Both the position numbers and the translations under genes were made by a program. A stretch of 64,000 bases of DNA from Pegea sp. RAD2-039 (lineage: Eukaryota; Chordata; Thaliacea; Salpida; Salpidae). The stretch is taken from NCBI GenBank assembly GCA_034620365.1, contig JAQGEQ010000175.1:2294001-2358000 (forward strand). Direction: 5' to 3'. Below, piece after piece: positions 9,601-61,320 of the stretch. The notes under the pieces were generated by a model. It ran no database searches. It was not told the DNA's origin and was given only the letters and a program-made list of their open reading frames with translations. Positions within the stretch are counted from its first letter, which is position 1; each line of letters begins with the position of its first letter.

Positions 9601-12600
9601 TGCCAGCTCTTACATTGACGGGCTTCGACAAATAACGAGGAAGCAAGATCTTTGCTGGTTCTGAAACAATCAAACATATTTTACAATTTAATAAAATTCT
9701 AATAAAACATTGAAAGCTTCATTCAATTTTTAGCAAGTATTTGATACGATAAAAACTCTAAAAGTAATAAAACCGAACGGTTTTGCTGACAACATAAAAA
9801 TTATCTAAAATAGGTTTTCATGAATTTAGCAAAATGAAAAGAAGATTAAAAATTGTTCGTTTCAATCCTTAACTCGCTGATGCTGCTGATTATGTCAGCA
9901 CTGTAAGATACAAGACAGGAAGGATTGTATACAGCCTAACAATGTGACGTACTTGTATGTGTACATCTTTCATGATATATCAACTTACGCATCTTTCTCA
10001 CTTGGTTGTATGACGTCAAACTACTCAAGTGTAAATGGAATAAAAAATTCTATGAAAGGGGCTTTCGCAAAACCTCTGAAGAAGGTTTGTTTTGTATATA
10101 CCTTTTAATTTACTAATTTTGTTTTAGTTAAAGTTTATGGCATCAAATAAAAACTTTACTTTAAAATTCATTTTTTAAACTTTTATTCAAACAACATCTA
10201 GAAGAGTTGTTAGAAGGCAAAATTAATTTTCCTTGAAATTGTCTCTTAAAACTATATTAAATAAATATTTTGTTTACAAGTCAGACTTAATTTTCAATAT
10301 CACAGGTTCTTCTTCTACTTTATTACCAACCACTTTAATGTTATCACTTGTAAACTGGTATGCTAGTAGCATCAAACCTAGATAATAATGTGACTTTGAA
10401 CTGAAAAATGTTTTAATCATGACTTTTCAATCAATCAAATGTAAGGTTTGAACATCGACAACAATGGAAAACTCCCTAACACATCTTACATTGTAGGAAC
10501 ATATGTCTAAGAATTAAAAGTATTTATATTTTAAGAAAAAAATTGTTTTTTTATCCTTAAATGTTCAAAACTTGAAATTGGATTTGTGATATTTTCATTT
10601 TGAACAAGATAAAAACAAGTTGTCCTGATATTTGAACATACTGAAAAACAATTATATCCTTACTCTATTAATAAAATATATTTCGAGAAAACGATTTTAG
10701 TTACAAGTTGTAATATGCAAGAAACATGCTACCACAAATTCCCTATAATCTATAAAATGAAATTAAAAAATAGTTTTTTCAAAGAAATAGTTTTGACAAA
10801 TTTCTAGAATATAAAATGTTAAATATTTTTTTAACTCATAAAAAAAACTATTGACGTCACTTATCAGAAAGCAATAACAATTTTACCTGTTGAAAGACAA
10901 ATGTAAAAACAGTATATTTGCGTCTAATTTAATAATTGATTTATACAAAAAAGACTCCCAAGCATAATATAACTACTAATTCATGTACATTGTAATACAT
11001 TTTTTGATAATTTAATTATAGTAAAGAATGGAATATTAAATCTCAAACTAACCAAAAATAGCAGCCGCAATTGTTACAGGAGTGCAGAGATATGAGCTGA
11101 TGCCAGCTGGATTTATTGTCGCAATTCGAAATTTGTATTTCTTTCCAGTTGTTAAACTATTTATAGTGTAATGTTCTTGGTTCAGTGTTTGATTATCTTT
11201 TAAAACTGGTCTCCAATCTTCATCTTTCTCTTCATTAGACCTCACTTCAGTCATTTCCAGCTTGTTAACAAATCGGTTAGCAATTTTCAACTAATAAAAC
11301 GTTTTCACAGCTTTCAGCATAAACGCTTTCATTGACCAAGCAACAATTTGTTATTTGCACTCTCATAAAAGTGAACATCTCATCCATCAAACATTTGCAG
11401 ATAAGTGTTTTGGTGAAATTTCATTTTCCTTATTTTATTTTACACTTAAACAACTTACTGACGTAATTGACCAATAAGATTATTTTCTAAACCATTTCTT
11501 ATAAACTCAAGTCATAATTAAAACACAACAATTGAATCAATTATTGATCAAACAATTTTATCAATTAATTTTATTAATATTCTATCAATAAGAAGGTCGA
11601 AACTGCAGTGACTGACAAAGCTGATGACATTGATCAAGTAAATACAAACAAAATTTAAAATATTTTAGAAGTAAATACCTGATACCCATCAATAGTATTC
11701 GTATGTGTGTCCGCAGGAGCTCTCCATACAAGAGATACACTATCATCTGTAGTTGATGAGACTCTTAGACTTGCTGGAGGATTACATTTTCCTGATGACA
11801 GATTTTCAGAATTTATTTTTGCAAAATAATGCTGATGTTTTATTCAAGAGGCTCAATGTGACTTTATCTCAAAAGATTTTTACTATTTAAAAGTAAAATA
11901 GTTTTTGTTATTTTTGTGGTTTGTTTGTAGCAGATGTTAACTTTGATCTTTAAAATATTATTTTTAATTTCTAATAAAGACAAAATAAATGCATTTATAT
12001 TTATGTAAGCTGCTTTTAAGTATATTATTTACATTTTCTAAATAATATTTAAATACTATTTTTCCGTGTAAATTATAGTAGAGATTATTTTTTTATCCTC
12101 TCAAAGTATCTCTAAGTAAAAAATTATTATTCTAAAGTCGTTAAATAAAGTTTAACTTTTTCGAATTCAAGTGAATTAATTAAATTTAACCTAAAAAGTA
12201 AACTTTTACAGCTAATTAACTTATATTATCAAATGCAGTTAGAAAAAGAGCAGAAAATGTTAATAATAGAAATAAGGCAGATTCATATCAAAAAGAAGCT
12301 GAAATTGTTATTGAAGCCAGAAGCTGTTTAAGTAACGACTTAAAATTAGCGATGGCGATGATGATGATAAAACGTTATTCTTGTGCTTTGACGTTTATTT
12401 CATATCATTAGATCAAATTATGGCGTCGAAAAACTAAAAAAGAAAAAAGATTTCTTTGGATAAAGCTAAGATCCGGACCTGCAAGAAGCCAGCTCTTAAA
12501 CAACCAGATTTTTAACCCCACACACACACTTATAAGTGGTTTTGTCATTGATGGCAGCAAGAACAACGTAGAACAAAGTTAAGATTACCAAATTATTACT

Positions 12601-23949: not shown

Positions 23950-25330
23950 ATTTATTTATTTCAGTAAATGCAAAGGATGTTGCCTGAAGAGAGAACCTCC
24001 CGCTAACACATTTTCACAAATGATATCTCTTAAGTTAGAAATATAGAAAGAAAAATATGTAACACATGGCATTTATTGAGGTAAAACAGTACGTAATGTC
24101 ATTAATATAAATTCTTCAAAGTATAGGTCTAAAAACGCTGTTTAGAAGTGAAAATTGTTGAAAACGGTTGAACTTAAGCTTGTTCAACACGAGAGATTCT
24201 GACATGACAATGTTTGATTGTAGTTGGTTCCAAGTACTAATCGTTCAGTATGAGAAAAAAATTTACTCTGATTAAAGCACCATGAGATATGGGCTTATGA
24301 AGGCGTATTGTATGTCGTCTGAGTTGATATATCTTGTGAAAAGGACTAACGGAGAACCACTATTAAATTGAAGGTCAACCGATTTGTTAAGAATTTAAGA
24401 AAATAAAAATTAAGTCGTATTTAATCCGTTGAATTTCCACGGTATCTAGATCTAAGAATTTAAGACAGTTTTCATAACTATCGCAAAAATTATTATGTTA
24501 AATCAATATTAGAAGGCATCGCTAGGCATTGCATCTATCATATTTGATGTCGTCAGTAAAGTTTAAAATATAAATTCAGTAAACAGTTGATAGAAACTCA
24601 TTAATCCCATCATAATTTCTACGATAAAAATTCCATTTGCATTCAGTTTTAACGTTTATAAAACAGCTTGATGAAGTTTGAATCCGATCATATTGTGATC
24701 AAATGTAAAAGCAAAAGATTCTTTTTGATCAACATAGATAATATTACAATCAATTGTACTAAAACCAAATCCTCCAACGTCTATAACTCAGGGCATTCAA
24801 CATTCGTTCACTACCTTGAATAAAACCTTAATAGTAAGACCGTCATTAGTTTTAGAGGGTGGTAGGTAGGTACATAAAAATAGAAATAATGGAGTTTATC
24901 TCAAAGTGGGTTTTGTTTTTAATTACACAAACAATTTCACCTCTATCATACAGTCTGTCACAACGCAAAACACAAAAACGATTACCGTCAACCAGAAAAG
25001 AATCCGGATAAAACGGCTTCAACCAAGTTTCAGTAATAAAAACAAATGTGAAATCCTGAGAATGCAAAATAGTATTCAATTGAAAATTTTTGTTAATAAT
25101 CGACCGCGCGTTGAAGAGCATACTTAATGTGATAAACGAATTATCTTTTTGACGCTTGTGAGAATTGATATGTGGTAGAACAGTAGAGTATTTTGCCGCT
25201 GACGTAAATGTGTTAGTTAACATTTTCTTTCAGGCCTCGGTTATTTGGTGATAGACTGTGGATAGTGCGTATCGTTGGTATGTTTATCATTTAGTCACCT
25301 TAATAATCTAAATAAAGCTCGATATAACAT
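23950..25330 (-). mobile_element. LINE copy with internal deletion (endonuclease joined to RT tail)
   Basis: On the minus strand, 25330-25224 matches the 5' leader of the copy at 26160-26340. The frame 25223-24852 reads the N-terminal part of an apurinic-type endonuclease (LFNARSIINKN, VFITETWLKP). It is followed in shifted frames by the post-endonuclease linker (FYRRNYDGINEFLSTV near 24600). At about 24510 the sequence jumps to the RT C-terminal tail and ends in the shared 3' hairpin and an A/T tail near 23950. The whole catalytic RT domain is missing, and several stops and frameshifts are present. Confidence 0.75.
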
Positions 25331-35327: not shown

Positions 35328-37437
35328 ATGTCTGTAGTCTCTCGTGTCTGGTTGAATTCTGATGCTTACTTAGTGTGTCTTACTCATGCTATGTCTAATG
35401 AAACAGAAGAAATTATGGGATTATGCATTGGAGATACTCAAGAAACAGTAAATATTTATCTATATTCTTATTGTTATATTTTAAGTTGGTTTGACCATGA
35501 AAAGTGTTGTTTAATATTTGTAGGAATTATTATTGCTGAAATATTTTATATAAATAAATAATAGTTATATTTAGTAAATAAACTAAAATAGTTATAAAAA
35601 TATAAAAAAAAATGATTGTTTTAGTTGAACTGTTCTGATTATTTTATGTAAAAATATTAAATTAGATAAATCTAGTATATTTAGATTATTTTAAATATTT
35701 ATATGATTATTAAATTTCTTTAGCATATTTAAATAAATTGTTAAATAGTTTTATGCTTATTGAAAACTTGTTCTATATTTACTTGATGAATATATACAAT
35801 AGTCACTATTATAAAACTAATAATTTCTCAATAGAAAAATGGATATGAAATAACAATTTCAGCTGTGATGCTGTTAAGACGCATGGATAAAAGAAAAGAT
35901 CGCGTTGAAATATCAGTAGAACAGCTATCAAAAGCTTCTACAGTGGCTGAGATATCCTTTTTTTTATCTCAAGTTTTTTATAGTTTAAAATTGATTGAAT
36001 TAATTCCTCTCTTGATTTGTAACTTAAAATTAATTTGTTTTATATACCACATTTATAAGTTTTTTGGGTTTATAAATTGTTATAAAATGAACTATGTAAA
36101 CATTTTCTTAATAATTATTACAATATGGCTAAAAAAACTGGGAAGCCTTTGCATATAGTTGGATGGTATCATTCTCATCCACATATAACAGTATGGCCTT
36201 CTCACGTTGGTCAGTTTTATTTGTTTTGTTTTAAATTGAGTTTTAGTAAAAAAATGACAAATTATTCATAAAATTATTAATATAATCAAAGCTTTTCTTG
36301 ATTTAAAATATTGTTATCAATATTTTGAATTTTTATTATTATAAAAGAAAATATAACTTTTTTAGTTTCTTAAATTGTGGTTTTTTGAATTTGACAGATT
36401 TTATTATAATTAGCTACAGCTTAAGTTGAAGTAATTTTTAAGATGATTTTTAAACTTGTAAACTTTGAATTAATTTCACTAAATTGTTATATGTTTGAAT
36501 AATACTAATTATATTTATACTGATTGTACTTGATATTATTAAACCTATGTTTTAAGTAAGTAAATTTTCAAATTGATGTTTTACAAATTTTTTTCTCATA
36601 TCATAACATTGTTTTTAAGATTTAAGAACGCAAGCCATGTATCAACTAATGGATAAAACATTTGTTGGTCTGATCTTTTCATGTTTTAATGAGACAAAAA
36701 GTAATCTGGTAAGTTTTTATTTCTTACTTATTAACTCAGTAATCACTGAAATGTTTCTTTCATAAAATTTTTTTAGCATCAAAAAGTAGAAATGACTTGT
36801 TTTCAGTCTGTACGAAGTGAAGTCAATTGGGAAAACTCTCAGTAAGTTCTTCTATTTGATTAAATTAAAAAAGAAAGTTGTAAATAAAATTAGTTCTATT
36901 AATAGGCACCATCGTGTTGAAATTCCAATATATCTAAAACGCATGCCTACATTTGATGAAACTAATCTTCAAACTCTTATTGATCTTCCAAAAATTCTTG
37001 TTCAAGAAGAGAATGAAGCGTATGAAATTGCAAACAGGTTAATTGGTTGAAGAATACTACAATCCATAATACTTATTAATATATGTTAATAGATTCTCAG
37101 ATAATTTCAAAACAAAAATGATTTTAAATAACCTGTTTTGTAAGAATTCATCAAAATTTTAAATTACTTTAATTCCACAATTATGCTAATTAAATTTTCT
37201 AATTGTAGATCTTCTAGCTCTCATATTCTTACCCGAATTCACAATGCATCAGCTTATGCTCAAACTCTATGCAATGTTACTGAGACTATCACTTCACCCA
37301 TGTTACATTTGTTACATTCTACTGATATCTCGCGTTGTAACTTATTGGATATCATAAACAAACAAAACGATGAAATTTTCTTGCGAGTTGAAAACCTAAA
37401 GAAAAAGATCAAAGAGAAATCAGCTTCACGCCAGTAA
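35328..37437 (+). CDS. brcc3: BRCC36 (BRCC3), JAMM K63-specific deubiquitinase, complete
   Basis: Zn-metalloprotease that cleaves Lys63-linked ubiquitin chains in the BRCA1-A DNA-repair complex and in BRISC. Seven exons: 35328-35447, 35835-35951, 36122-36209, 36620-36708, 36777-36841, 36906-37037, 37209-37437; 279 aa in frame. The MPN+/JAMM centre is complete: the Glu in EEIMGLCIG, then HSHPHITVWPSHVD with both His, the Ser and the Asp. LRRMDKRKDRVEIS, TQAMYQ and FVGLIFSCF match the family, and the C-terminus is a coiled coil (LRVENLKKKIKEK) like the one that pairs with Abraxas/KIAA0157. The second intron (35952-36121) is of the AT-AC type. The poly(A) signal AATAAA is at 37699. Confidence 0.95.
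35952..36121 (+). other. U12-type AT-AC intron in BRCC36
   Basis: The intron begins ATATCCTTTT, the U12 5' splice-site consensus, and ends in AC (36120-36121). A branch-site match TTTCTTAAT lies at 36104-36112, about 10 bases from the end. Removing it joins codon GAG to AAT in phase 0 and restores the conserved protein (AE|NMAKKTGKP). No GT-AG pair nearby gives a conserved frame. Confidence 0.9.
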
Positions 37438-49856: not shown

Positions 49857-52283
49857 ATGATAAAGTTAGCAACTGTTGTTTTTCTTCTGCTCTACAAAGC
49901 ATCTTACCATTCAACAATGGCAGATTTGGTTTGTAATTTTGGTATTCTAAATTAAAATATTTGTTATTTGTATATATAAAGTGTAAACTAAATATGTGAT
50001 GAAATTCAAAATAAAAACAAGTTAACAAGAATAACTTTGAAGGTAATAAGTTTTTTATAATTGTTTAAAAGAAAATATGTTTTAGTGCTCAGGTTTTACC
50101 TGCCTAGGACGAGGCCAAACATGTAAGATAATAAACAACCAGCCCATATGCGCATGTAAAGAATGTGATAGTGTCCCAGAACCTGTATGTGGGACAGATG
50201 GGGATACTTATTTAAATGAATGTTTATTAAATAGAAGAGTCTGTATGACTAATATGAATATTGAGCTTACTGATTGTAATGCTAACAAAACTAATTTTGA
50301 ACCTTGTGATGGAGATGAAAACGCAGTTGTACCATGGATTGATATTCCTCGCCGGAAAAATTATACTGTCCGGACTGGTCAGAATTTAACTATTCCATGT
50401 ATAGCTCATGGCATACCTCACCCATTAGTTGTATGGATTAACAAACAAGGAGTTCCAGTTTCAAACAATCCTATCGATCAGGTTTATGCAATTGATAGAA
50501 ATCTGAAAATTAAGTTTGCAACAGAAGAAGTAGAGGGAGAGTATAAGTGTGTTGCGATAAACTGTGCTTCTGTTCGGAACATCAACTTTGCTACTTTGAA
50601 CAGCGATAGCAGTATGGTGATTCAGATTCATTACAGAAGTTGTAAGTATCTTTTATAATTATTTTGATATTTATGTTGTGAATTGTAAAATGATTTATTT
50701 TTCAGTAAAAGATTGTAGAAATATCGTCGGCATGAAACCTTTAGCATATAAAGTTCGTACAACCACCGTCACTACCAATCGAGGTCAAAGTGTATCACTG
50801 ACATGTGATATAGAAGGTGTACCAAGACCTAAAGTTACTTGGTATAAGCAAGAGAGGGGACCAGATATGTTGACTGAAAATTCGAATCAAATTATTCGTG
50901 GAAATTTTCTCAGATTCTCGTCGGTTCAAATTCAAGATGCTGGATATTACACTTGCGCGGCAGTGAATTGTATCAGCAAGAAACCTACTCGTGCTTATGT
51001 AAGATTAGTTGTTAAAGAAGGTATGATAACAATTTCAAGTTTTGATAAGTTTACTTTTTTGTTTACTTCTCCTATATAGTGATCAACAAATCGTTTACTA
51101 CTAAAGCAATAGTTAAATTTAGCTAAATGCATGAAAAGATAAATTATATATTATTATAAAACTTGATCATATCAACAGTTAACTGTTTTAAAATAACAAA
51201 CAAAAATACATTTAAATGAATTTAAGTTTTTCAAGGTTAGCTTCTTTCATTAAAACTAATTCATTATAAAACAGATATGCACCAGTTTGTTGAAAACTGT
51301 TTACTAATGAAATGGGACTCTAGAGCTGAGAAGTTTTGTGAAAGCCCAACAGAAAGAACTTATTATGCTTTTGATCCTTTACAAAGACTTTGTGTCCAAA
51401 GAACTGGTCCATATTGCCCTGGTTTAAAAAATGCTGTATGTATTTTTTACTATGCGACCAATTTTTGCTTTTCTAATATGTTGGTTTGTTAGTTCACAAC
51501 TCTATCACGTTGTTCGGTGGATTGTATGACATTTTGTGATCTGCCAATTGATGCTGGAGCTTGTACTAATAGACAAATCCGTTATGGTTGGGACTCATCT
51601 AATTGTGTTGTAAGTTAAAGTCAAGCATGTAAGCAAATTAGTACTAAAATGCTTTTTTATATTAGAAATTTTTCTATGGAGGCTGTGGAGGAAACGAAAA
51701 TAATTTTAAATCGAAATCTGTGTGTAGAGATACTTGTGAAAAACGTTATTTTAAGATTGCTTATCACCGGAAGTTGACTGACGATTTTACTTTTAACCTT
51801 GAAATTCCTGCTCAATGCCCTTCTTGCAATACTACTTTGATTGGCAGCTACTGTAACCACGATTTTATATTAGTTGTCAGAATGTTATCATCTGCAGATA
51901 ATGCTATAAATGTACTTGTTGAAAAAATTCTGCACAACAAAACTGACCTAAGTCCTTTTATTGATGGTTTAAATCATACAACAGTACTTATTGATAATGA
52001 CATCAGCTGTAAATGTCCAGAAGTTTCGTTTATCTCTTGGCCGAGTCGTCAGAAACATGAGTTGTATCTGTTAACAGGAATGATTATTGATGATTCGCTT
52101 CGTATCGTTCATGGATCACTTTTGAAAACTTTTCAGCACCGTTTTGCAAAAAAAGTATCTTTTTTCACCCCGGCTGTTTGTGATGTCATCAGAAATTGGA
52201 ACATTGTAGATGACAAGTTACTAAATGCTTCTGGTATAGAAGTCGTACCACCTGAAGAATTTATGAAACGTTTTGGTCTGTAA
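49857..52283 (+). CDS. WFIKKN-like secreted multidomain protein, two Ig domains
   Basis: Secreted protein related to WFIKKN, which in vertebrates binds GDF8/GDF11-type ligands. Six exons: 49857-49928, 50086-50641, 50706-51020, 51275-51435, 51493-51609, 51666-52283; 612 aa. Order: signal peptide (LATVVFLLLY); follistatin/Kazal module (CSGFTC...VCGTDGDTYLNEC, about 25-95); Ig 1 (about 105-205); Ig 2 (about 215-310); Kunitz 1 (six Cys); Kunitz 2 (CDLPIDAGAC...FFYGGCGGNENNF); netrin/NTR module starting CPSC. No WAP domain is present, unlike vertebrate WFIKKN, and there is one extra Ig. Ig 2 is a single phase 1-1 exon. The start is supported by its conservation in the pseudogene and an acceptor 11 bases upstream. 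Papilin-type proteins are an alternative family, but the NTR module argues for WFIKKN. Confidence 0.88.
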
Positions 52284-56300: not shown

Positions 56301-59300
56301 ATGAAATTCCATATTTCAATTTTCATTCTTTCAACTCTGGTTGTTTTATCTTATCAAGTGAGAAAATATCTTCATAATATTTAGATATTAGTAATAATAA
56401 CTTGACACAAAGTATTAAACTTATTTACATATCAGAAACCTCATTATGGGATTCAACATACCAGCACATCAAATGAGAGTTACGAAGAAATCGTACGTAG
56501 TTTTTTCATGCATCAGGTAATCTATTTATAGTATTAAAAGGGTCTTTTATAAAATGTATCAAAAATATAACTTATTTTCTATGTTTTTGTTTCAAGTGAA
56601 ACGAATTCGAGTTTTAAACTGATCAAAATAAATTTAAAAAATTTAAAATAGCGTAAAAAGCCGAAATTGATTTCTTCAGAATCAAAAATGTTCTCTTTAA
56701 TTACAGTGTAAATTCTACAGCTGTCTTCGGCAAGGTGCAGAGTGTCAAGTAGTTGATGGAAGTCCAACTTGTGTTTGCAAGACACAATGTGAGCAAGAAG
56801 GTCCTTATGTATGTGGAAGTGACTCTAAAGTCTATAAAAGCATCTGCCATCTGGATCAAGAAGCATGCAATAAAGGAAGATATATTAATCCAACTTTCTG
56901 TACTGATCCTGAAATTCAAGCATTTAGTTTTTGTCCACTTCAACCAGGGAAAGTCGTCCCTAAAATACCAAGCATGCAAGTTACAGATCATTTCTATATT
57001 GGACCTGGTCAAAGCTTAAATATCAGCTGTGAACCAACTGGAATGCCTTCTCCAAGAGTCCACTGGCGTTCAAATAAACATTTTTTACTCGATCGACGTC
57101 GCCAAGTGTATGCTAACAACAACGTCCTCTACATCAAGAATGCAAACGACCATGTAGCTGGAGTTTACTATTGTCAAGCTATCAACTGTGCTACAGACCC
57201 ATCAGTATATATCCCGACAAAAGCTTTCAAAATTCATTTCGATCCGGAATTTGTGGGTAAGTTTTAGAGATTTCAAAAAACTTTTCTTTTGGCAAAAATT
57301 AAAGTAATTAATTTACAATAAAACTAAAAATGAAACAAATTGTAAAATAATTTTCAACCATTTAAAAGTGGATGGAATATATATTAGTATTAAGAATAAC
57401 TATATTTATTTTTGAAAACTTTAAAATTGATAAATTTGTCTGAAAGCGAGGTAAAAAGTCACTTTTAATGCAAACGATGATGATTTGAGCTCCATATAAA
57501 GTTCACAAATTAGCTAAAGAAAGTAAAAGGCAAATAGGGTCGAATTTGCTCTTTGATATTTAGAAATTCCTTAGTCATCATTTCATGATAAATGTTGTGG
57601 TTGGCTGTGGTTGTGCACTAACACAGTAGTTATTCCTAGGTTACGTAAAAAATGTGTTGCTCAATCTTTTTCTTTAATTTGTAAACAGCCAAATGACCTC
57701 TTTACGATAAAATCATTACTTATTCATATTGTCTAGACACGATAATTAGTAAAAGCAGAAATATAGGTTGAAATTTTGATATAATTTCAATTTTTATGAC
57801 AAGTTATATTAATGAAATACCTTGAATTTTAAATTCAATTTAAATGCATGGATTTTATTACAATTTTATAATGAATAAATACTCACTAAATAAAAGTTTG
57901 TTTAGTTATTAAAGTGTGCCAAAAATCATATTTTGTTATCAGTCTACATTTTTCTGACAAATAATTTTAAAATGTTACAGAAAGTTTCAAAAGTTTTGTG
58001 AAAATCATTTTCAAGAAGTCACCATTATATAAACATGATTAAAAACTTCATATTCTTCCGTAAAATGAAAAATTGTAAAGCTGTGTATTTACCTCCTAAA
58101 ATTTCACTATATATATTTTATATATTTGTATATAAATTTGTAGAATCAGAACCCAGAAACTTCCGACAGTCTTGTCTTGAAAATTGGTGGTCACGCCGAA
58201 ACAACAGTTGCAAAAGTGATGGTTCCAAACGTCAAGCTTGGGTTTATGACGTCTTTGCTAGAAAATGTATCGCTAAGAACATTGACAAATGTGAACTTTT
58301 AATGAGCTCGGTAAGATTATTTGCATTTAATCCGATTCTTTCAATACAAAGTTTGCTTTTTGCTGCTATTGACTGGAAATTATAATTTGTTGTAGTTTAA
58401 AACAAAGAAAGAGTGTAACCGAGCCTGCCGTGTTGAATGTGATATCCCTGTGTCCAGGAAGCGTTGTCAGCATCAACCAAACTCAGTGGTATATGACCCT
58501 AATCGAAAAATTTGCAAAGTATGAACCTGTCTATATTACATTTCCAAAATGATTAATTCAAAAAGAAATTTTAAGTAAATAAATATGTCTATTTCAGTAA
58601 ACTTTTATATTATTCGTTGTTTTGGTCAAATTGAAGAGTTTAAGTGACTGTGCCAAACTAAAGCAAATTAAATACTGATCACTATTTACTTTTGTTTCAA
58701 AGATATTTTTTACTCTACAGCAAAGTCGATATTCTTGTGGAAAGAACTCGTTTGAGTCTATAGAAGATTGCGAAAATGTTTGCGTAGAAAGGCAGCTGAT
58801 ATTAGATGAAGAAAATAATATTCCATCACCATTTTTAAGCTGCCCTATAAGCTGCGAAACACCTTGGAAAGATGGTTATTGTGATTCAGATTTTATGGTG
58901 TATGGCGAAATACTGGAAATGTCTATGGATGTGTTTACTGTTCAAGTTTTCAGAATTATTAAAGACCATCAGTTACTATCCTTAAAAATAAAGTTAAATG
59001 CTTTTTCAAGTTTTAAAATGGTTTTGAAAAATACTAAATCCTGTATTTGTCCAACATATCAAAGTTTAAAGCTATTGTTTGATAATAATATCACTCACTT
59101 CTATATAAGTGGTAATTACTATAGAGGAAGACCTTATCTTGGAAGATTTGTCATTCAAAGCTCAACTTCAAATAATATCTGGGCAGAGCGGATGAGTAAG
59201 ACATACTGCTATGCCATAAAAAATGCTCGAAGACTTACAGAAGAGTCAGCGAGGTTAGCAGGTATACGAATAGGCAGCCAAAGAGAATTTGCTCGGTTGG

Positions 59301-59347
59301 TAGACTTAGAGGATGCTAAAAGAATGAAGAGACGAAACGGTCAATGA
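56301..59347 (+). CDS. WFIKKN-like secreted multidomain protein, one Ig domain
   Basis: Seven exons: 56301-56357, 56436-56516, 56707-57256, 58144-58310, 58396-58518, 58721-59347 (the last contains Kunitz-2 end plus NTR; six coding blocks in all), giving 534 aa in frame. Order: signal peptide (ISIFILSTLVVLS); a short linker; follistatin/Kazal module (CLRQGAEC...TCVCKTQC...HLDQEACNKG), which is very close in pattern to vertebrate WFIKKN; one Ig; two Kunitz modules; netrin module (SCPISCETPW...ICP); basic tail (KRMKRRNGQ). The WAP domain is missing. Kunitz 2 is shortened between Cys 3 and Cys 5. The first Kunitz has Lys after its second Cys, the P1 position. It is the same family as 49857-52283 but clearly divergent, so it is an older paralogue. 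AATAAA signals lie at 59590 and 59602. Confidence 0.86.
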
Positions 59348-59609: not shown

Positions 59610-61320
59610 CAAATCAAAGATTGTTTTGTAATTACGACTGCTTGACTTTTAAAGTCGCTTTTATCATTTAGTAGAAACTGGCATAGGTTTTTTAAGTAAT
59701 TAAAACATTCTGTAACTTTAGTTTGAATTTTGTGAATTTTATTACAAAAATAAATCTGTATTTAGATCTCTAAAGCCAAACAAATTAGCTGTTTATGAAT
59801 CATTCCTAAATGCTGCAAAATCTAAAGGAAATCACCAGATTACATTTTTCTACTTCAAACCACTCTTGACACAAAATATGGTTTTAATTTTGACAAAATA
59901 ATGATTTAAAAATATAATGAACAACAACTCTGTGTTTTAAGTTTTGTTTTTTATATTTAATTAACGGTAGAAAATACCTACAATATACGTTGTCTACAGA
60001 AATCACGAAACAAACTAGGAAAATCTGTTGTATTTATAAAAGTTTATATTTTAAATTTTTAAGCAGCATGGTTTTCAGAACTTTTGTTATAAATATATTA
60101 AGATTATTGCAACGTATATAAATTTATTCGATAAAATAAGTATATTTCCAAAGTCATCAGATGCTGAAATCCCAACTTTCATAATTCTTTTGTTGCATTT
60201 GTGAATTTGTATTAACACCAAAGTTATTCTAAATTTCTATGGTTGTTTATATTTGGCAGCCCCAAAATACCCTTTATTTGAAACGGTTTTTCTAACTGCA
60301 TCTCCTATGATGTTTCTTAAAACCAAATATTTTTACAACTTATGGCCAATTTTTGCAACACGCAAAGTAGTTAAAGTAAGTTTGTCATATTTTTTCGTGA
60401 ATAAAACTTTCTAGCAAGTAAAGTAATATTAAGGAAAGAAAAGAAAGTGTTTAGTAAACAGAAAAATATCAAAATATAAGCAAGCTTCTTGCTAGAAAAA
60501 TGAATTTTATTCATTTTTTAATAGAAAAAATAGTATTTACTTTTGTCTTAAATATTAACTCTATTTTCATTTTTACTAATTAGCACACAAAATTCTTGCT
60601 CGTTTGAATACCATGTTTAAATAAAGTTGAAAGTATCACATGGAATTACTGAATTAAATAAGTTCCTGAAACTTCTTCTTACTTTGGAAATCCAGTTTTC
60701 ATAGGCGATAGAAGACGAAGATGACAAATAATTGTCACCATCTACTATTGAGCGTTCATAATAACGGAGACACTCTAATTTATGAATAACAATCTTAGAA
60801 AGCCTAGATTAAATTACTTTTTTAACATTTTAAGGTTTTACACTTGCTGTTAACTCCATAAAAATTAGAAAAATTAATGTTGTAACAAATTTAATTATAA
60901 AAATTATCATTAACAAATCACTTATTTGACTTTTATTTTCTTGTACCAGCGATAAGTTTACTTTTGGCCGCTTTCTACAAGAGCAAAAAATGTAAAGTTA
61001 AATGAATAAAAAATACAATAGCTTGTTTTTGGTTAGAATTATGGTAATAAGTTTTTCTAAACCTATCTGTTTTAGATAGCTTAATTTAAACTTCTTAATA
61101 ACTTATGAAATGATACAAAAAATAAACAAATTTAAGCTTTTATATGTCCCTAAGTATAAATGATATCAATTTTTTCGGTAAACTAATTAATTAGTAATTG
61201 TGTCAAAGTATTGAATGCCTCAATGAAGCTTTTAATTAAAAAATTTTCAATTTGATACTTTCTATATTGCAGCTGACAAAATAAACTATTTATACAAACA
61301 TGTAAGTCACTTAAGATTGT
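59610..61320. other. Intergenic spacer
   Basis: AT-rich; no gene, RNA gene or repeat end recognised. Confidence 0.4.

Follow-up and report, generated by a model that had tools for sequence, protein, structure and literature searches.

In minor splicing, U11 recognizes the 5' splice site and U12 the branch region, after which U4atac/U6atac joins and U6atac replaces U11. The branch motif of U12-type introns is near TTCCTTRAY and lies some 10-20 nt before the 3' end. The described system closest to the locus analyzed here is the BRCC3 gene itself, given that only two U12 introns of Arabidopsis, those in EXOSC5 and BRCC3, have human U12 orthologues according to U12DB (PMC2831892). Among tunicates, Ciona intestinalis has 113 U12-type introns in U12DB (PMC2831892). 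An automatic comparison of Ciona with human (154 comparisons) gave 41 U12, 83 absent, 29 U2, and 1 ambiguous (PMC2831892, Table 1), and a later count over 77 clusters gave 25 U12, 1 ambiguous, 17 U2, and 34 absent, with the same source warning of under-detection. Larvaceans, on the other hand, are described as lacking any U12-type snRNA (PMC13326754).

The second intron of a tunicate BRCC36 gene

The window, i.e., the whole 64-kb stretch of DNA that was analyzed, contains a complete gene for BRCC36/BRCC3, the K63-specific JAMM deubiquitinase. Like the human and Arabidopsis BRCC3 genes, it carries a U12-type intron, here the second one. The features are as follows:

35328..37437, + strand, BRCC36/BRCC3 gene, 7 coding exons, 279 aa, complete
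35328-35447, + strand, exon 1
35835-35951, + strand, exon 2, last codons GCT GAG
35952..36121, + strand, intron 2, AT-AC U12-type (minor), 170 nt, phase 0, between exons 2 and 3
35952..35961, + strand, 5' splice site ATATCCTTTT, which can pair with the U11 5' end (AAAAGGG) and with U6atac (AAAGGA)
36104..36112, + strand, branch-site-like TTTCTTAAT, matching TTCCTTRAY with 1 mismatch, its branch A being 36111
36120..36121, + strand, terminal AC of intron 2
36122-36209, + strand, exon 3, first codons AAT ATG GCT, encoding GWYHSHPHITVWPSHV of the JAMM motif
36620-36708, + strand, exon 4
36777-36841, + strand, exon 5
36906-37037, + strand, exon 6
37209-37437, + strand, exon 7, stop included

The identity of the gene was established by comparing the 279-residue product with PDB and Pfam. 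Eight BRCC36 sequences in PDB match it, with E values from 1.4e-75 (DrBRCC36) to 1.7e-55, and all of them rank above the 26 remaining JAMM/MPN sequences, which include RPN11 and CSN5. Pfam recognizes both JAB (80.7 bits) and BRCC36_C (70.1 bits). The product therefore joins a JAMM/MPN+ domain to the BRCC36 C-terminal helical domain by both PDB and Pfam, as is expected of BRCC36/BRCC3. A search for relatives of the locus in collections of genome contigs and of viral contigs gave 52 and 10 pattern-matching stretches, respectively, none of which was confirmed.

The preliminary description had placed an AT-AC intron at 35952..36121 with a given 5' end, branch site, and terminal AC, and both coordinates and sequence are as it claimed. 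Its reading of the intron as U12-type also agrees with what is found: the 5' splice site matches the U12-type ATATCCTT at 8/8 positions, the branch motif matches TTCCTTRAY at 8/9, and the branch A is 10 nt from the 3' end, TTTCTTAAT stopping nine bases before it. Intron 2 therefore combines the 5' splice site, the branch motif at its proper distance, and the AT-AC termini at the junction by which the class is recognized. The remaining five introns of the gene are all GT-AG; their 5' splice sites have 3, 4, 4, 4, and 5 mismatches to the U12 type versus 0 for intron 2, and their best branch motifs have 2 to 4 mismatches, a single mismatch being found in intron 2 only.

That excision restores a conserved reading frame was likewise borne out, given that the joined exons give an open BRCC36 of 279 aa that aligns across the joined codons GAG/AAT with no gap in all three of the PDB alignments shown. 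To place the junction, splice pairs were enumerated with the last exon base at 35880-36009 and the first exon base at 36060-36199, admitting GT-AG, GC-AG, AT-AC, AT-AG, and GT-AC termini. The AT-AC pair 35951/36122 is the best of the 56 in-frame pairs, with a score of 235, followed by a GT-AC pair (218) and the best GT-AG pair (206). The junction can be slid by +1 alone, which would give TA-CA termini. The possibility that intron 2 is in fact a GT-AG intron with shifted ends, e.g., 35973-36145, is scarcely credible: this pair does keep the frame and gives a protein of 278 aa, but it replaces the conserved NMAKKTGK with ISFFLSQ and scores 206 versus 235, and gap-free homology to BRCC36 requires the AT-AC junction.

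The motif scan was rejected as evidence by itself, because in a window as AT-rich as this one the motifs often combine by chance. Indeed, RTATCCTT occurs three times on the plus strand of the window and twice on the minus strand, and 54% of 100 simulated strands with the dinucleotide make-up of the window contained a combination of 5' splice site, branch motif, and AC. A second ATATCCTT with possible partners is found at 10654, among minus-strand frames that look immunoglobulin-like by eye, and was left without support as a further minor intron. What makes the motif of intron 2 improbable by chance is that it stands exactly at the junction fixed by homology: the motif counts put the 5' splice site at ~5e-5 per position and a branch motif within range at ~1%, the product being ~4e-7.

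The termini by themselves do not fix the spliceosome that removes an intron (PMC2831892), and AT-AC introns of the major (U2) spliceosome are known, as in SCN4A intron 21. Nonetheless, the major AT-AC introns of sodium channels all have a G at +5 (PMC2831892), whereas intron 2 has CC at +5/+6 and agrees with the U12 type at every one of the eight positions of the 5' splice site. It is thus very unlikely that intron 2 belongs to the major spliceosome. Taken with the homology-fixed junction, we are almost certain that 35952-36121 is an AT-AC U12-type intron of a tunicate BRCC36 gene and a substrate of the minor spliceosome, and most likely a retained ancestral BRCC3 intron.

Minor-spliceosome components in the same genome

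The preliminary description had predicted that U11, U12, U4atac, and U6atac would exist in this organism. All four are present above the Rfam gathering scores in the genome (105,744,746 bases in 387 contigs), where the search, whose counts are lower bounds, gave at least one U11 (92.4 bits), at least two U12 (77.8 and 76.0 bits), at least one U6atac (73.5 bits), and at least one U4atac (73.3 bits). The identities of the five loci were confirmed by a separate Rfam scan. The genes sit on other contigs, and an Rfam search of the 64-kb window at gathering scores gave no matches.

Judged from their sequences, these minor snRNAs look functional. Sm sites AAUUUUUG are found in U11, in both U12 copies, and in U4atac, and U4atac:U6atac duplexes have energies of -26.9 kcal/mol for stem II and -9.6 kcal/mol for stem I. 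The 5' end of U11 is UAAAAGGG, which is able to pair with the intron's UCCUUUU; U6atac contains AAAGGA. The pairing of U11 to the 5' splice site is equalled by 1.3% of random 20-mers. For U12 and the branch region, the pairing is unremarkable, being equalled by 19% of random 22-mers from the window, and the duplex program favours a register slipped by one; RNA duplex energies were therefore set aside as weak support for the branch site.

For the intron found here, the proposed course is that U11 would pair with the 5' splice site of intron 2 and U12 with its branch region, that U4atac/U6atac would join next, and that U6atac would take the place of U11. Removal of intron 2 in vivo by the minor spliceosome is thus what the sequence features lead us to expect.

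Upstream of these genes, CCCACAAA is found in four of the five, at -57 in U11 and in both U12 copies and at -63 in U6atac, while U4atac has GTCACAAA at -54. As background, CCCACAAA occurs twice over both strands of the 64-kb window. The two variants may represent a common snRNA promoter element, perhaps this animal's proximal sequence element for snRNA genes. The two U12 genes (C374:6635-6783 and 60152-60300) are in opposite orientation and ~53 kb apart; their RNAs are identical at 148 of 149 bases, and their flanks are alike for ~200 bases upstream and ~50 downstream.

The snRNAs also bear on the idea that intron 2 is part of a wider relaxation of splice rules, of the kind known from the larvacean Fritillaria, where non-GT-AG introns are removed by the major spliceosome. 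The genome studied here is apparently that of a tunicate, as is Fritillaria. However, larvaceans are without U12-type snRNAs according to PMC13326754, whereas all four are found here, and the five neighboring BRCC36 introns are all GT-AG. The probability that such a relaxation explains intron 2 is minimal, and removal by the minor spliceosome remains the preferred reading.

Four families of minor-spliceosome-specific proteins were searched for in the genome (U11-25K, PDCD7/U11-59K, U11-48K, and CENATAC), two of which are encoded. The suggestion in the preliminary description of looking for U11/U12 proteins was thus rewarded in part. U11-25K is clearly encoded, to judge from a profile match of 103.8 bits in the genome; of the two PDB matches to its frame, the second is a chain named U11/U12 25 kDa protein, with an E value of 1.5e-23. 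The presence of a gene for PDCD7/U11-59K is supported by the profile scores: it reached 24.5 bits in the whole-genome search, below the cut-off of 27, but its open frame scanned singly gave 27.6 bits, and the frame joined with two neighboring pieces picked by eye gave 41.3 bits. No true U11-48K could be recognized among the matches to CHHC zinc fingers in the genome. Matches at C11:758525-758892 were at first read as U11-48K and then rejected, given that they are two CHHC fingers in tandem (PF05253, 61 bits joined), an arrangement that we take to be GTSF1-like rather than U11-48K-like. For CENATAC, which promotes splicing of AT-AN minor introns in human cells (PMC8280824), the genome gave no match, but this carries no weight as an absence because the search matched nothing anywhere.

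Origin of the intron and a second AT-AC intron

Among the papers examined on minor or AT-AC introns of BRCC3, PMC2831892 alone bears on intron 2. We infer that intron 2 has the same position and subtype as the human and Arabidopsis BRCC3 introns. The available text of PMC2831892 gives neither; the position of the human and Arabidopsis intron is likewise not stated in the available text of PMC12475092, PMC8345071, PMC2258195, PMC2426677, and PMC9630842. A U12-type BRCC3 intron common to human and Arabidopsis is already published. Intron 2 is most likely unexceptional, the ancestral U12-type intron of BRCC3 from an ancient intron class, kept in a lineage that lost many. Given that BRCC3 has one of the very few minor introns on record for both plants and animals, and that a tunicate keeps one as AT-AC although the group has lost many minor introns, its retention may be read as a result of selection, for instance if the level of the K63 deubiquitinase were tied to the activity of the minor spliceosome; this we regard as improbable.

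One further gene, syntaxin-6-like, was tested for a second AT-AC intron, and the result was positive. An AT-AC U12 intron in STX6 is common to fly (Syx6, CG7736) and human (PMC2831892), and the counterpart gene here likewise has one. This syntaxin-6/10/61 gene, on contig C21, contains a 56-nt intron at 1291244-1291189 on the minus strand that reads ATATCCTTTT...TTCTTTAAC...AC, and its excision gives LEETISIVEMNPQKF in frame. The joined exons score 85.7 bits in Pfam versus 49.1 and 30.2 bits for the two separate genome matches. The intron is only 56 nt long and is likened to that of STX6 by gene, not by aligned position.

A complete set of minor snRNAs together with AT-AC introns is therefore present in a small (105.7 Mb), AT-rich tunicate genome. 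Ciona intestinalis is another tunicate with U12-type introns, and the set is notable beside the larvacean branch, which lost these snRNAs (PMC13326754). Gene predictors that demand GT-AG introns would break or truncate both BRCC36 and STX6 here. Intron 2 also provides an extra data point on which minor introns withstand loss.

Other loci in the window and genome

Two adjoining stretches of the plus strand of the window, 50086-52280 and 56701-59344, contain Kazal-, immunoglobulin-, and Kunitz-like exons, recognized by Pfam in the former and by eye in the latter; they resemble secreted inhibitors of the WFIKKN/papilin type. On the minus strand, an open frame at 24852-25223 looks, by eye, like a non-LTR element endonuclease of the CR1/jockey-like kind.

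The palindrome TGACGTCA recurs often, in the window at 278, 4040, 10011, 10852, 13865, and 19180. It is also found in the loci L007-L010 and L017-L019, some of which overlap (L009 and L010 are the C374 U12 loci). The window has 10 copies of the palindrome's core GACGTC versus 3.3 expected and L010 has 13 versus 0.5, while several loci, e.g., L012-L015 and L021, have none.

At C14:72138-75739, a cellulose synthase catalytic exon is followed one to three kilobases on by GH6 exons, which is the arrangement of tunicate CesA. A GH6 domain in CesA is reported for 8/8 tunicates and 0/35 other metazoans (PMC6523144). The animal is therefore most likely a tunicate and, since larvaceans are without U12-type snRNAs, more probably an ascidian or a thaliacean; a COX1 search gave no match. 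The cellulose synthase exon scores 63.3 bits with Pfam PF13632 and matches cellulose synthases in PDB with a best E value of 1.5e-21, and the GH6 domain scores 27.5 bits on one exon and 60.9 bits over four exon pieces.
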